Assembly: GCA_010028905.1 (NCBI GenBank)
Contig: RGZZ01000011.1
Coordinates: 1 to 33,630, forward strand
Origin: Pseudomonadota bacterium
GTDB lineage: Bacteria; Vulcanimicrobiota; Xenobia; RGZZ01
Direction: 5' to 3'
DNA length: 33,630 nt
Shown: piece after piece, positions 1,542-10,256 of the stretch
How positions within the stretch are numbered: the first letter of the stretch is position 1
Layout: every line of letters starts with the position of its first letter
Program-made: the position numbers and the translations under genes
Notes under the pieces: generated by a model
Seen by the model: only the letters and a program-made list of their open reading frames with translations
The model's database searches: none
What the model was told of the DNA's origin: nothing

Positions 1542-4500
1542 TCAGCGCGGCTTGAGGCGCGGCTGGGCAAACCGTGGGTGCAGCTTCGGCGAAGGGGTGT
1601 GCGGCGGCGTCTCGTCGAGCAGGCGAATCACCTCATCGATGGCACGCTCGAGCTGCGCGTCGTGCGAGCGGGCGTAGTCTTGAGGCGCGTTCTCGATCTC
1701 GATGTCCGGATCGGTGCCGTAGTTCTCGATCTGCCACCCCACGTCGTCGAAGAAAAACGAGAACTCCGGCTGTGTCGTCACGGTACCGTCGGCCAAGGTG
1801 TGGCGAGGCCAGATGCCGATGACCCCACCCCACGTGCGCACGCCGAGCAGCGGCCCCAGCTTGAGCATCTTGAACGCGTGGCTGAACATGTCGCCATCAG
1901 ACCCCGCGTGCTCGTTGGTCAGGGCCGCCATGGGGCCGCGGGGAGATTCCTGGGGATAGGGAACGGGCGCGCCCCAGCGCGGGAAATCGTAGCCCAGGCG
2001 ACGCCGTGCGAGCTTCTCGAGCAACAGGCCGGAGACATTTCCCCCGCCATTGAAGCGCACGTCGATCAAGAGCCCTTCGCGATCGTACTCGACCAGATAG
2101 GCGCGGTGGAACTCCGCGAAGCCCTCGGCGCTCATGTCGGGGATGTGGATGTATCCCACCCGCCCGGACGTTCGCTCGTGAACGCGCCGGCGCTTCTCGT
2201 TGACCCAATCGCGATAGCGGGCCGAGCGCTCGTTCGTGAGCGCCTTCACGGTGACCGTGCGCACCTCCTGACCCCGCTGCACCAGGAGCTCCACCTCGCT
2301 TCCTCCCAGGTTCACGAGCCGTGCTCCCGGAGGGGTTCGGTGCCCCACCGACTGACCGTTGATGGCGAGCACCACGTCACCCGACCTCAGGTTGGCGGCG
2401 GGCGCCGCCAGCGATGACGTGGAACGTGCGTCCCACGGATCCCCTTCGATGATCCGGTGGATGACGCATCGACCTTCCTCATCAACCGCCCAGTCCACCC
2501 CTAAGAAGCCCTGGCGATAATCCGGTGCGGGTCGATACTCCCCACCGTATTCGTAGGCGTGGGAGGTTCCCAGCTCTCCTTGGAGCTCCCACAGCAGATC
2601 GGAGAACTCTGACCGCGTGGCCACGCGATCGACAAGCGGGCGATACCGATCGTACACCGCGTCCCAATCGATGCCACACATGTCGGCCACCCAGAAGTGC
2701 TCTCTCTGCAGGCGCCACGCTTCACGAAACATCTGGCGCCACTCCGTGCTGGGTCGTGTCGACACCTTGACGCGGTCGAGATCGATCCAGCCGCTCTGCC
2801 GACTCGGCTTGCTGCCATCCTTGGCACCGCTCTTGCTCTCTGGAGGCTTGTCTCCCGCCTTCAAGACACGCAGGCGCGAACCCGATCGATAGACCAGGGT
2901 CTTTCGATCCATCGAGAGACCGAAGCTGCTGATGCCGTCGACCAGGCGCTCCTGTTTCTGGTTCTCGAAGTCATAGCACTCGAGGATGCCTCTGGGTCCG
3001 CCCCCTTCGGTGTCGGTCAGCCTGCGCGCACCCTCGACAGGAAACCAGGAGAAGACAGCTTTCTTGTCGAGCCCGACAATCGCGCTGTAACGCGCTTCAG
3101 CAACAGGAAACGCCACCACGCGGCGAGACAGTCCGTCGAGGTCGATGCGCATCCGGTCTTCGCTCTCTGCGAGCACATCTTCATCGAGACGCGCATCGCC
3201 CGCACCGATGACATCGCCCGCCGGCTCAGGCAGATCAGAAGGCTTCTTCTTCGCACCCTCGTCCTTCTTCTTGTCCGGGCTGAGCGGCCTGGGAAGCGGA
3301 ACGAAGGGTGATGGAACATCTTCGCGCAAGGTCACGAGAAACGGTCGCGCGCCACGCGGAAATCCCAGATCGAACTGCATCTGATCGTGGACCGGATCGA
3401 AGTCGCGCTGACCGATGAAGTACAGGTAGCGCCCCTTCGGATCGAACGCGGGATTGAAATCGTGCAGCACGGGCGAGGTGGCGTCGTATGTCTCTCCGGT
3501 CTCCACGCGACACAGCTTTATCTTCGTGGTCTGCAGGCTGTCGGGAAACCCGTAGGCTACCCAGGCGCCATCCGGCGACCAGGCGACGCCCGCGATGCGC
3601 CCGTGGCCACTCGTGTCAAGAACCCGGGCCGTGGGAGGCGCTGCCTCGAGATCAACCAGCATCAGCTCATTCCGGTGGTTGGTGACGATCACGCGATCAT
3701 GCGCAGGAGAGGCCTCGATCAGGAGCATGCGACCCAGATCGAGGTCGTCGAGGCGCTGCGATTCCAGCGGAGCGCCATCCTGGGGCGCGGCGAAACGCAC
3801 CAACCGCTCGTGCGGGCTCTCGTCTGAGGCGGCGGCCACCAGCCGCTGACCATCTCGAAGCCAGGTCAGCAGGCGATAGCGAACGCCCTCCGGATCTCCG
3901 AGCTGGCGCACTGCGCCCTCCCAGTTCGAGAGCACGAAGGCCTTGCCACGAGAGGTCAGTGCGAGTCCGCTGCCATCCGGCTCGAGATCGACGCTGTGCA
4001 GATAACGCCCAGGAGAGACGAATCGTCGGTTGCGCTGCGTACGCGAGGTCGACAAGACGAGATCGACGCGTCGAGCCTGATCTTGCGCGGGATCGAGTAC
4101 GTAGATGTCTGCGCCCGCGTGGTAGACGAGACGCTTCCCATCGGTGGAGAGCGCGCGTGCGTAGAACTCTTCGTGATCGGTGTGGCGTCTCACGTCGCTG
4201 CCGTCAGCCTGACACGAGTACACGTTACCGACGCCTTCGTGATCAGCGATGAAGAAGATGCGGTCATCGACCCAGCACGGGCTGGCCAGGTTCCCCTCGA
4301 GCGATCGCAGACGCACGTAGGCGCCGTCTCCGTGTGCATCGACCCAGATCTGTCCGATGGTGCCTCCGCGATATCGCTTCCAACGGGCAGGTTCCGCGGT
4401 GTTGCGCCCGATCAGCGACATCCCCTGCGGACCGAACGACAGCGCACTTGCAGGGCCCAGGGGGAGCCGTTGGGGGAGAAGATCTCCCGGACCGACGGTG

Positions 4501-6593: not shown

Positions 6594-7739
6594 CTATACC
6601 CCAGCCCCCACTGCCGCCGTCTCCTTGATTCGAACCGGCATGATCAGGTAGAGAAGGTCGTCGGCGTTGACCGGCTTCATCATCGCCATGCTCAGGGGAT
6701 CATTGAGAAGGAAGCGTATCTCCTCGCCCGTGGCGTTGCTCACGCAATCGAGCAGATATCGACCGTTGAAGGCGATGGTGATGGGTTCGCCATCAAGACG
6801 AACCGGAAGCTCTTCGCAGGCCTGACCCACGTCTGGCGTGTTCGAGCGAATCGACATGCTGTCGCCCGTGATCTCGAGACGAAGCAGCCGCGGAGAGTCT
6901 TTTTCCTGCGCCATGATGAGAGCGCGACGCACCGCTCCCAGCAGCTGCTCTCGATGCACGTAGACCGTGCGCGAGAAAGACTTCGGGATGATGGCCTCAC
7001 AGTCGGGAAAGCGACCCTCTTCGAGCAGGCGCGCCACGAGCTGGATGTTGCCAAAGCGGAAGAAGACCTGGCCGGGCGATGGCGTGATCTCGAGCGAGGT
7101 GTTGTCATCTCCCAGCAACCGCTGCAGCTCGCCCATGGCGCGTCCGGGAATGATGGACTTGTAGGACGTGGTCACCTGCGACCCGTCAAAGGTGCGCTGC
7201 ACACGCGCCAGGCGACGGCCATCGGTGGTGACCAGCATGGCCTTGTCGGGCTCGATCTGCGTGAGAATGCCCGTGAGCACCACCCGGGTCTCTTCTGGCG
7301 GTGCAACGGCGAACTGCACGCTGCGCACCATGTCGCGAAACGCGTCGCCCGAGACCACGAGGGTGGAATCTCCCTCGGGCTGGGGCAGCACGGGAAACTC
7401 GTCGGCAGAGAAGGTGTTGATGCGAAAGTTCGAGCCCTTCGCCTTCAGCTCGAGCTGATTGCCCTTGATCATCTCGAGCGAGATCTCGGTCTGGGGCAGC
7501 TGGGTGATGATCTCTCCGAGCAGGCGTGCGGGTGCGGTGAAGGCGCCGGCCGTGATGACCTCCGCCTTGACCTGGCACTCGATGACCATCTCGAGATCTG
7601 TTGCAGAGAAGTGCAGCGCACCATTCTCCGCGCGCACCAGCAGATGGCTGAGAATGGGCAGGGGACTCTTCGGGTTGACCGCCTTGGAGGCGGTGAGAAT
7701 GCCGCTCTCGAGGGCTTTTCGATCGCAGACCACTTTCAT
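6594..7739 (-). CDS. dnaN: DNA polymerase III beta subunit (sliding clamp)
   Basis: 381 residues. DnaN forms the ring that holds the replicative polymerase on DNA. The N-terminal M-K-V-V-C-D-R-K-A-L-E and the following L-P-I-L-S-H-L-L are typical, as are the three clamp domains of ~120 residues and the C-terminal L-M-P-V-R-I, the usual M-P-M/V-R-L/I ending that lines the partner-binding pocket. A short extra tail of 11 residues follows it. ATG 7737-7739 was chosen because AAGGAG lies at 7750-7755 and the conserved sequence begins here. The gene follows dnaA in the same direction, the classic order, but with an unusually long spacer of 569 bases, so it may have its own promoter. Confidence 0.98.
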   Translation of the reverse strand: MKVVCDRKALESGILTASKAVNPKSPLPILSHLLVRAENGALHFSATDLEMVIECQVKAEVITAGAFTAPARLLGEIITQLPQTEISLEMIKGNQLELKAKGSNFRINTFSADEFPVLPQPEGDSTLVVSGDAFRDMVRSVQFAVAPPEETRVVLTGILTQIEPDKAMLVTTDGRRLARVQRTFDGSQVTTSYKSIIPGRAMGELQRLLGDDNTSLEITPSPGQVFFRFGNIQLVARLLEEGRFPDCEAIIPKSFSRTVYVHREQLLGAVRRALIMAQEKDSPRLLRLEITGDSMSIRSNTPDVGQACEELPVRLDGEPITIAFNGRYLLDCVSNATGEEIRFLLNDPLSMAMMKPVNADDLLYLIMPVRIKETAAVGAGV

Positions 7740-7852: not shown

Positions 7853-7963
7853 ATGTTCATGGTAGATCTAGTAGGGGCTGTGGACGGTGTGAAGAACTCA
7901 TTTCATCGCTTGTTCTACGCCATTTTTTGATGATTTTGCTGGTGGGTATCCTTGGGATTCGGC

Positions 7964-8138
7964 TCCGGTTCCGGTTCACAGTTCCGGAGCCGGAGAGATA
8001 TCCGGACGCCTGGTTCCGGATGCGGTGTGACTTGTTCACCTCGTTTCACACGCGAACCGGATTTGTTCCTCACATCTCTCCGGAGAGACTTCCGGACCCA
8101 CCCACACCCATTCACAGCGGTCATGCACGGTTTCCGGA
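7964..8138. repeat. Cluster of TTCCGGA / TCCGGA palindromic motifs
   Basis: CCGG occurs ten times in 175 bases, mostly as TTCCGGA or TCCGGA: 7964-7968, 7969-7974, 7982-7988, 7990-7994, 8001-8006, 8014-8020, 8057-8061, 8079-8084, 8090-8096 and 8132-8138. The copy at 8079 is the centre of a perfect 14-base palindrome (8075-8088, TCTCTCCGGAGAGA). TTCACA or its complement TGTGA is interspersed near 7975, 8027, 8045, 8111 and 8145. The copies are irregularly spaced, so this is not a simple tandem repeat. It looks like a multi-site protein-binding region. Confidence 0.75.
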
Positions 8139-8308
8139 TTTCAATGTGACCTGAAAACCCCTTGGTAGCGATCTTCGCACGTGTATGTCTGGCCACCGCT
8201 GGAGCCACGCGCCATGAAAAAGACCAGAGACGAGTGGATGGCTCGCCTCTGGCTGTTTTGCAGATGGGAGATCAGGGCGGACGCTGCGGAAGCGCGAGGC
8301 GTATCACG

Positions 8309-9688
8309 TCAAGAGGGTTCTTTCAGGTTCTCGGTCAGGATCTCGATGTTGTCGCGTGTCGACGGGTCCTTGCTGTATCGTTCCTCGATCTGACGGCACG
8401 CGTGCATGACGGTGGTGTGATGCTTGCCACCGAACTCGTCGGCGATCTGCTTGAGCGAGCTCGAGGTATGCTCACGCGCGAGGTACATGGCGATCTGACG
8501 CGGGAACGCGAAGCGATGATCGCGACGCTCCCCCACCAGCTCATCGATCTTGATGCGGAAGTGCTCACACACGCGCTGCTGGATCATGCGTATCGTGATG
8601 GCGGTAGGCTTGATGTGCGGCAGTATCTGTGCGAGCGCCTGTGTGGCGGTCTGCATGTCGATGGGAAGGGCGTGGGTCGAGGCATAGGCGATGACACGGA
8701 TCATGGCCCCTTCGAGGTCGCGGATGCTGCTGGGAAAGCGCTCGGCGATGAAAGCGATGACGTCGAGCGGTACGTTGATGTGATACTGCTCTGCCACCTT
8801 CTTTCGCAGGATGGCCTCGCGCGTCTCGAGATCGGGGGACTGGATGTCTGCGATGAGTCCTTGTGTGAAGCGAGAGCGCAATCGATCTTCCAGCGGACTG
8901 AGCTCGTGTGGCGGGCGATCGCTGGTGATCACGATCTGGCGGTTGCTGCTGTGGAGCTCGTTGAAGGTATGGAAGAACTCTTCCTGGGTGCGCTCCTTGT
9001 TGATGAGGAACTGGATGTCATCGACGAGCAGCACGTCGACATTGCGGTACTTCTCGCGAAACGATGCCGTGCGCTTGTTGCCGAGCGATTCGATGAGGTC
9101 GTTCATGAACTGCTCGGTCGATACGTACACGATGCGCGCCTTGCGCTTGCGCTGCAGGATGCCGTGCCCGATGGCCTGCATGAGGTGGGTCTTGCCCAGA
9201 CCCACCCCTCCGTACAGGAAGAGCGGGTTGTAGGCCCTGGCTGGGTTCTCGGAAACCGATCGGGCTGCCGCGTAGGCCAGCTGGTTGCTCGAGCCCTCAA
9301 CGAAGGTGTCGAAGGTGTACTTGGGGTTCAGATAGATGTGCTGTGCTGTGCTCTCGCGCTGCAGCTCCAGGCGATCATCGCGCGATATTGTCGTGTCGCC
9401 TCGGGTCTCGCCATCGATCCACTCGACGCGAACCTGAACGCCAACGAGGCGCTCGAGTGAGACGCGAAGCTCACGTGCCAGGGTGGAGAGCATGGCGGGC
9501 TCTTCGTTCAACAGGTCAGAGAACTGACCCAGTCGCACGCGCACTGTGCTTCCATCGACCGAGACGAGCTGCATCTCTCTGAGGCAGGCCTGCCAGACCG
9601 GGCTTTCGAGTCGCTTTTCGATCTGCTCCTGGCACTTCTGCCAGACGCTGGCAATCTCCGACGGGGAAACGTACGTGTCTTCCCTCAT
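8309..9688 (-). CDS. dnaA: Chromosomal replication initiator DnaA
   Basis: 459 residues. DnaA binds DnaA boxes in oriC, forms an ATP-dependent filament and opens the DNA. Domain I is residues ~1-90 (S-V-W-Q-K-C onwards), followed by a short linker. Walker A is G-G-V-G-L-G-K-T-H at 160-168 and Walker B is L-L-V-D-D-I-Q near 220-226. Sensor motifs I-T-S-D-R-P-P and R-L-R-S-R-F follow. The C-terminal helix-turn-helix ends with the signature G-G-K-H-H-T-T-V-M-H-A, where the usual R-D-H-T-T reads K-H-H-T-T. ATG 9686-9688 is preferred over the upstream open frame (to 9928), since domain I begins here and AAGGGAG lies about 9 bases upstream. It is transcribed away from oriC. Confidence 0.98.
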   Translation of the reverse strand: MREDTYVSPSEIASVWQKCQEQIEKRLESPVWQACLREMQLVSVDGSTVRVRLGQFSDLLNEEPAMLSTLARELRVSLERLVGVQVRVEWIDGETRGDTTISRDDRLELQRESTAQHIYLNPKYTFDTFVEGSSNQLAYAAARSVSENPARAYNPLFLYGGVGLGKTHLMQAIGHGILQRKRKARIVYVSTEQFMNDLIESLGNKRTASFREKYRNVDVLLVDDIQFLINKERTQEEFFHTFNELHSSNRQIVITSDRPPHELSPLEDRLRSRFTQGLIADIQSPDLETREAILRKKVAEQYHINVPLDVIAFIAERFPSSIRDLEGAMIRVIAYASTHALPIDMQTATQALAQILPHIKPTAITIRMIQQRVCEHFRIKIDELVGERRDHRFAFPRQIAMYLAREHTSSSLKQIADEFGGKHHTTVMHACRQIEERYSKDPSTRDNIEILTENLKEPS

Positions 9689-9986: not shown

Positions 9987-9995
9987 TTATCCACA
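9987..9995 (+). promoter_or_regulatory. DnaA box 1 (TTATCCACA)
   Basis: Perfect consensus 9-mer on +, facing box 2. The flanking TTCATCCAC just upstream is a weaker partial copy. Confidence 0.9.
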
Positions 9996-10011
9996 GTGCC
10001 CGTGAGGATGC

Positions 10012-10020
10012 TGTGGATAA
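10012..10020 (-). promoter_or_regulatory. DnaA box 2 (TTATCCACA on -)
   Basis: TGTGGATAA on +, a perfect consensus in inverted orientation to box 1, with 16 bases between them. It directly abuts the A-rich candidate unwinding stretch. Confidence 0.9.
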
Positions 10021-10225
10021 CTTTACCGGATGCGCATGAAATCGAGCAAAGAAAATTTCGTCAGATGCCGGATCACATTCAATTCCGGCCGGGTCTCGTC
10101 GACAGTCAAGTGCCCAGGCACCCATCGCTCTGGGGCATCTGGCCAGTGATTCGCGATCAGCTCGTAGAAGGAACCCTGTTTCAGGGAGGCGAACCCCGCC
10201 GCGCCGGAAGAACCGTTCAGAAGAG

Positions 10226-10234
10226 TTACCCACA
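10226..10234 (+). promoter_or_regulatory. DnaA box 3 (TTACCCACA)
   Basis: One mismatch from TTATCCACA. It faces box 4, with 13 bases between that include the palindrome GCATATGC (10235-10242). Confidence 0.7.
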
Positions 10235-10247
10235 GCATATGCACACC

Positions 10248-10256
10248 TGTGGATAA
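10248..10256 (-). promoter_or_regulatory. DnaA box 4 (TTATCCACA on -)
   Basis: TGTGGATAA on +, a perfect consensus. It is followed by AT-rich GTTAACAAA (10257-10265). Confidence 0.9.

Follow-up and report, generated by a model that had tools for sequence, protein, structure and literature searches.

A conserved array of TCCGGA sites in DnaA-box register in the dnaA-dnaN spacer of a bacterial family, and a DnaA paralog as its predicted reader

Introduction

Bacterial origins are generally described as one DnaA reading one box word. E. coli DnaA favours pairs of boxes 2 or 3 bp apart, and the double DnaA box, tandem 9-mers at this spacing, is found at nucleotide-synthesis and replication genes (PMC11317965). 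The bipartite oriC of B. subtilis and C. difficile has the gene order rpmH-dnaA-dnaN, with DnaA boxes on the rpmH side and a DnaA-box/GC/trio element on the dnaN side (PMC7561715, PMC8287927). DnaA is also a cell-cycle transcription factor, acting on nrdAB in E. coli and on ftsZ and gcrA in Caulobacter, where DnaA boxes are predicted at dnaQ as well (PMC8203912). In Thermotoga, with its 12-mer, and in the Epsilonproteobacteria, a divergent box goes together with divergent recognition-helix residues (PMC7561715, PMC5043019).

The family described here resembles each of these systems in part. It has the spacing and the kinds of target gene of the E. coli double DnaA box but differs in that one of its two words is RTCCGGA, which is uniform and two bases off consensus. 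It shares with B. subtilis and C. difficile the gene order, the rpmH-side DnaA boxes and a DnaA-box/GC/trio element in the dnaN-side spacer, and differs from them in that the dnaN-side boxes beyond this element are mostly TCCGGA and in that the trio element is short (two trios). Its apparent targets, nrd, ftsZ, dnaN and a dnaQ-like gene, recall the DnaA regulons of E. coli and Caulobacter, to which the family would contribute another type of box and probably another DnaA. Finally, whereas in Thermotoga and the Epsilonproteobacteria it is a single DnaA that diverged, here it is a paralog that has changed, and canonical boxes remain in the genome.

Results

A dense TCCGGA cluster between dnaA and dnaN

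The window, that is, the whole stretch of 33,630 nt analysed here, is one contig (G000:C11) of a draft genome of 5.69 Mb. A spacer of 569 nt separates its dnaA and dnaN genes and contains the TCCGGA cluster at 7964-8138. The features of the region are these:

6594-7739, minus strand: dnaN (DNA polymerase III beta clamp), from the open reading frame and homologs
7861-7897, minus strand: degenerate unwinding element GTTCTTCACACCGTCCACAGCCCCTACTAGATCTACC, with two weak DnaA boxes, a GC stretch and two CTA trios, from alignment with the two family relatives and class comparison
7961-7980, plus strand: GG-type half box GGCTCCGGT, 2 bp, then weak DnaA box CGGTTCACA (lag 11)
7980-8020, plus strand: GG-type boxes AGTTCCGGA, GGAGCCGGA, ATATCCGGA and GGTTCCGGA
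8042-8096, plus strand: in-register array CGTTTCACA-cg-CGAACCGGA-tt-TGTTCCTCA-cat-CTCTCCGGA-gag-ACTTCCGGA
8075-8088, no strand assigned: 14-base palindrome TCTCTCCGGAGAGA, inside the 8042-8096 array, read from the sequence
8108-8138, plus strand: weak DnaA box CCATTCACA, then GG-type box GTTTCCGGA at a core-to-core distance of 22 bp
8309-9688, minus strand: dnaA, the canonical initiator, 459 aa, recognition helix KHHTTV
9987-10256, no strand assigned: rpmH-side DnaA-box cluster, with TTATCCACA at 9987 (plus), TGTGGATAA at 10012, TTACCCACA at 10226 (plus) and TGTGGATAA at 10248

The original prediction had described a dense cluster of CCGG palindromes with one perfect 14-base palindrome, and both are borne out: TCTCTCCGGAGAGA can be read directly, and the 175 nt hold ten CCGG (at 7965, 7971, 7984, 7990, 8002, 8016, 8057, 8080, 8092 and 8134), six TCCGGA and four TTCCGGA, the last all on the plus strand. 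Out of 2000 dinucleotide shuffles, not one matched the CCGG and TCCGGA counts of the stretch (CCGG mean 1.8, maximum 6; TCCGGA mean 0.19, maximum 3). The next-best 175-nt stretch in the window has 4 CCGG, and the densest across 400 kb of the genome has 6 CCGG or 3 TCCGGA. Over 400 kb TCCGGA is neither avoided nor preferred (115 observed, 106 expected). The proposed enrichment of TTCCGGA at the origin fails for the word itself, which occurs 227 + 229 times in the 5.69 Mb genome and is therefore not limited to the origin, but holds for its dense grouping: the origin spacer is, in all three genomes of the family, the sole locus with TCCGGA-N0-30-TCCGGA-N0-30-TCCGGA.

The flanks of TCCGGA are asymmetric, mostly A on the 5' side and mostly C or A on the 3' side, and the 5' TT of the DnaA box is present in few of the GG-type sites. 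Two further patterns were considered and dropped: the CCGG sites of the origin arrays showed no significant helical phasing with a 10.5-bp period (p about 0.1), and a composite TCCGG-N3-12-TGTGRNACG proved, in a genome-wide scan, to have no origin specificity. Downstream of dnaA on the minus strand, at 8209-8260, a hairpin followed by a T-run looks by eye like a terminator, and dnaN therefore probably has its own promoter.

Conservation and origin architecture

The family sample comprises three genera, all represented by drafts: the window genome, BP5.bin25 (G001) and the M_DeepCast MAG (G002, with Armatimonadetes in its title), the latter two with DnaN 66-67% identical to that of the window. 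The TCCGGA cluster is present in the dnaA-dnaN spacer of all three, and the spacers of the two relatives align poorly with that of the window apart from it. Outside the family, dnaA was located next to dnaN in 26 phylum genomes, including 8 from the class, and none of these has more than one TCCGGA in the spacer, so the comparison with relatives that the original prediction had put forward as a check came out in its favour.

The class relatives whose spacers were read out have ordinary DnaA boxes there, behind which come GC and CTA-type trios, as in TTGTCCACAGTATCAACACCCCCTATTACTACGACG. This unwinding element, well formed there, is degenerate in the family, where it sits 3' of the TCCGGA array in the dnaN sense. 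A DnaA box with no more than two mismatches lies near the trios in each family genome (TTCTTCACA in the window genome, TTCCCCACA in BP5.bin25, TTATCCCCA in the M_DeepCast MAG). The strict rule for a basal unwinding system (BUS; PMC8287927) asks for at least three consecutive 3'-NAN-5' trios, which several class relatives have; the window genome and the M_DeepCast MAG have two consecutive CTA trios. Because the degenerate element is kept 3' of the array, the spacer most plausibly forms the dnaN-side part of a bipartite origin whose canonical boxes lie on the rpmH side, and unwinding would take place at the dnaN-side element. The CCGGA likeness originally noted on the rpmH side (10026, 10069, 10203) turned out to be weak, with CCGG modestly above background and not one TCCGGA there. 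The suggestion that the spacer is half of a bipartite origin, or a multi-site regulator of initiation or of dnaN, fared better, and both readings are reasonable since the spacer holds a DnaA-box/GC/DnaA-trio unwinding element, but neither the DnaA-box spacing nor the sites at nrdJ, ftsZ and a dnaQ-like gene had been foreseen.

The sites are spaced like double DnaA boxes

When TCCACA and TCCGGA cores were compared on the same strand, with one mismatch allowed and in regions not picked by spacing, cores 11-12 bp apart were in excess in the origins and the nrdJ regions taken together (18 pairs against 5.6 expected, 0 of 5000) and in the origins alone (10 against 3.2, p 0.0012). A lag of 11-12 bp corresponds to a 9-mer plus 2 or 3 bp, which is the spacing of the double DnaA box; it is also close to one helical turn and would suit many protein arrays bound on the same face. 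In class relatives the lag of the spacer boxes peaks at 9 rather than at 11-12. An equivalent geometry, TGTGGA-N5-TCCGGA, whose spacing was noticed before its test, accounts in the family for 9 of 32 such pairs; the figure for class controls is 1 of 49. Since TCCGGA and TCCACA cores share this spacing, TCCGGA appears to be a DnaA box of a second type, RTCCGGA beside RTCCACA. It is not a near-consensus box: the GG-type core deviates from TTWTNCACA at positions 7 and 8, and the 200 nt holding the six TCCGGA contain no match to that consensus at one mismatch or fewer.

The first pair of the 8042-8096 array, CGTTTCACA-cg-CGAACCGGA, corresponds to an equally spaced pair in each of the other two genera, CGTTCCACA-aa-GAGTCCGGA in BP5.bin25 and CGTCCCACA-aa-TTGTCCGGA in the M_DeepCast MAG. 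The interspersed TTCACA/TGTGA motifs of the original prediction are indeed there as TTCACA (7975, 8045, 8111), but in view of these in-register counterparts they most likely represent weak DnaA boxes belonging to the same array.

Mixed boxes upstream of other genes

A search for TCCGGA pairs outside the origin led to the region upstream of nrdJ (class II ribonucleotide reductase), where, in the window genome and the M_DeepCast MAG, TCCGGA is mixed with DnaA boxes and both are enriched; in the window genome nadA lies on the opposite side of this intergenic region. Most other genomic TCCGGA pairs fall inside long open frames and were set aside. In 1.21 Mb (21%) of the window genome, the origin spacer ranks first and the nrdJ region second in the density of TCCGGA plus DnaA boxes. 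NrdR-box-like sequences, ACACTACATATTGTGT and GCACTAGATGTAGTGT, were also seen at the nrdJ promoter (L143 about 2250-2270, L144 about 1940-1960).

Two more examples were found once the pattern was already suspected. Upstream of ftsZ, the window genome and BP5.bin25 have in common ATGTGGATT(G/C)AATCCGGAC, i.e. TTGTCCGGA-tt-SAATCCACA, with a local score of 27 against a null maximum of 15; the M_DeepCast MAG keeps the DnaA box there and has no TCCGGA. Near the start of a dnaQ-like exonuclease gene of the window genome stands GGGTCCACA-ag-ATGTCCGGA-aa-ACGTCCACA, where the mechanical open frame begins within the box region and the true start is unsure. The composite TCCGGA-NN-TTGTCCACA followed by TTCACAG recurs in three further places, one in the window genome and two in the M_DeepCast MAG, and at two of the three it falls within a mechanical open frame with an uncertain true start. 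All three family genomes also have a second FtsZ-like gene (G000:C372, G002:C4, G001:C139), and in none of them does it have TCCGGA/DnaA-box pairs such as the first ftsZ has.

A family-specific DnaA paralog with an altered recognition helix

Besides its canonical DnaA the family encodes two paralogs, DnaA2 and DnaA3. DnaA2 co-occurs with the array in all three genera (L065:2356-3900; L067:767-2317; L070:1-420), known in BP5.bin25 from its last 139 residues, and a second full DnaA was not found in the other class genomes searched. It belongs to the DnaA family by its domains (window genome: Bac_DnaA ATPase, E 4.9e-60; Bac_DnaA_C, E 5e-24), and its domain IV aligns with E. coli DnaA chain 1J1V. 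In its recognition helix RDYST or KDYSS replaces DHTT, so that in all three genera DYST or DYSS stands in place of the canonical DHT/DHS and Y-S occupies the positions of H434-T435, which are among the reported base-reading residues (PMC5043019, PMC7561715). In the canonical DnaAs read here, these positions are taken by H and then T or S. At the neighbouring D433 the canonical DnaA of the window genome has H (KHHTTV), and that of the M_DeepCast MAG is KDHTTV.

DnaA2 forms a clade of its own with long branches, and its gene adjoins fhs in the window genome and the M_DeepCast MAG; the separate clade and the shared neighbourhood in two genera rule out contamination and mark it as an old, inherited paralog. 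Just 5' of dnaA2 an inverted DnaA-box-like pair, TTATCCAC ... GATAAGTGCATG, was seen in two genera (L065 about 3900-4020, L067 about 2317-2400), which suggests that dnaA2 may itself be under DnaA control. In DnaA3 (L066:661-1881, G000:C233; L068:7049-8359, G002:C13) PNQV replaces DHTT and glycine replaces the second Walker B aspartate. Its helix is shorter as well as changed, it shares a contig with ftsZ in both of these genomes, and it is a second candidate reader of TCCGGA. Sporadic DnaA paralogs elsewhere in the phylum (G115, G142) were also considered as altered readers and rejected, as they keep DHTT where the helix is visible.

Discussion

We regard it as very probable that the array works as part of DnaA-centred control of the cell cycle in this family. 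Who reads it is a more delicate question, and on balance we lean towards an array of second-type DnaA boxes in the dnaN-side half of the origin, with DnaA2 as the predicted reader. The choice of DnaA2, somewhat favoured in our judgement, is the most economical step from the helix residues and the distribution of the paralog. DnaA2, with its altered base-contacting residues, would read RTCCGGA boxes that share a register among themselves and with the weak canonical DnaA boxes. Oligomerising with or against DnaA, it would assemble on the array next to the unwinding element and so either help or restrain origin opening. At the nrdJ, ftsZ and dnaQ-like promoters, the mixed boxes would tie initiation to dNTP supply, division and proofreading.

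The ordinary DnaA of the family might instead read both words, TCCGGA being its low-affinity or ATP-specific sites, so that no paralog would be needed. The shared DnaA-box register, the mixing of the two words and the unusual KHHTTV helix in the window all fit this, yet the M_DeepCast MAG has the array together with a normal helix and the rpmH side retains canonical boxes. The low-affinity DnaA sites of E. coli deviate in many ways, whereas TCCGGA is uniform, and we consider such a double reading by one DnaA unlikely. We give about the same low weight to an unrelated, family-specific dimeric transcription factor that would bind TCCGGA and regulate replication genes together with DnaA. The word is a perfect palindrome, and dnaN, nrdJ, ftsZ and the dnaQ-like gene resemble one regulon; against this stand the asymmetric flanks and the 2-3 bp spacing in a register shared with DnaA boxes, and no candidate factor was found, whereas the family does possess a DnaA paralog whose helix has changed.

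Two other explanations seem to us very improbable. The oriC of E. coli holds a cluster of GATC sites acted on by Dam and SeqA, and a dense palindromic word at an origin invites comparison with sequestration of this kind, in which a CCGG or TCCGGA methyltransferase would mark the array. A search for PF00145, which covers methyltransferases of the C5 type only, returned none in the window genome or the M_DeepCast MAG and found them in 10 of 14 control genomes, so that C5 methylation of CCGG is disfavoured; nor does the frequency of TCCGGA show a genome-wide effect. Least probable of all is that the repeats act in RNA, as hairpins in a dnaN leader, or are neutral: CGGCTCCGG and CCGGAGCCG within 7962-7994 could pair, but no Rfam family was detected at cut-off, the word is conserved in surroundings that are little conserved, and it lies upstream of other genes too.

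Returning to DnaA2 as the predicted reader, it is tempting to extend the proposal to two initiators and two box words, an ACA-type and a GGA-type, interleaved at the origin and at the nrdJ, ftsZ and dnaQ-like promoters; DnaA2 would then be a co-initiator of shifted specificity or else a brake. This wider scheme, drawn from sequence comparison, we hold as a serious possibility while rating it just short of an even chance. In the literature searched, with partial coverage, a paralog with its own second box word was not encountered. Should it prove true that such a paralog and word operate at the origin and at dNTP-supply and division genes, the family would represent a natural case of initiator duplication with co-evolution of the box, and the residue code by which DnaA boxes are recognized would become directly testable in vitro.
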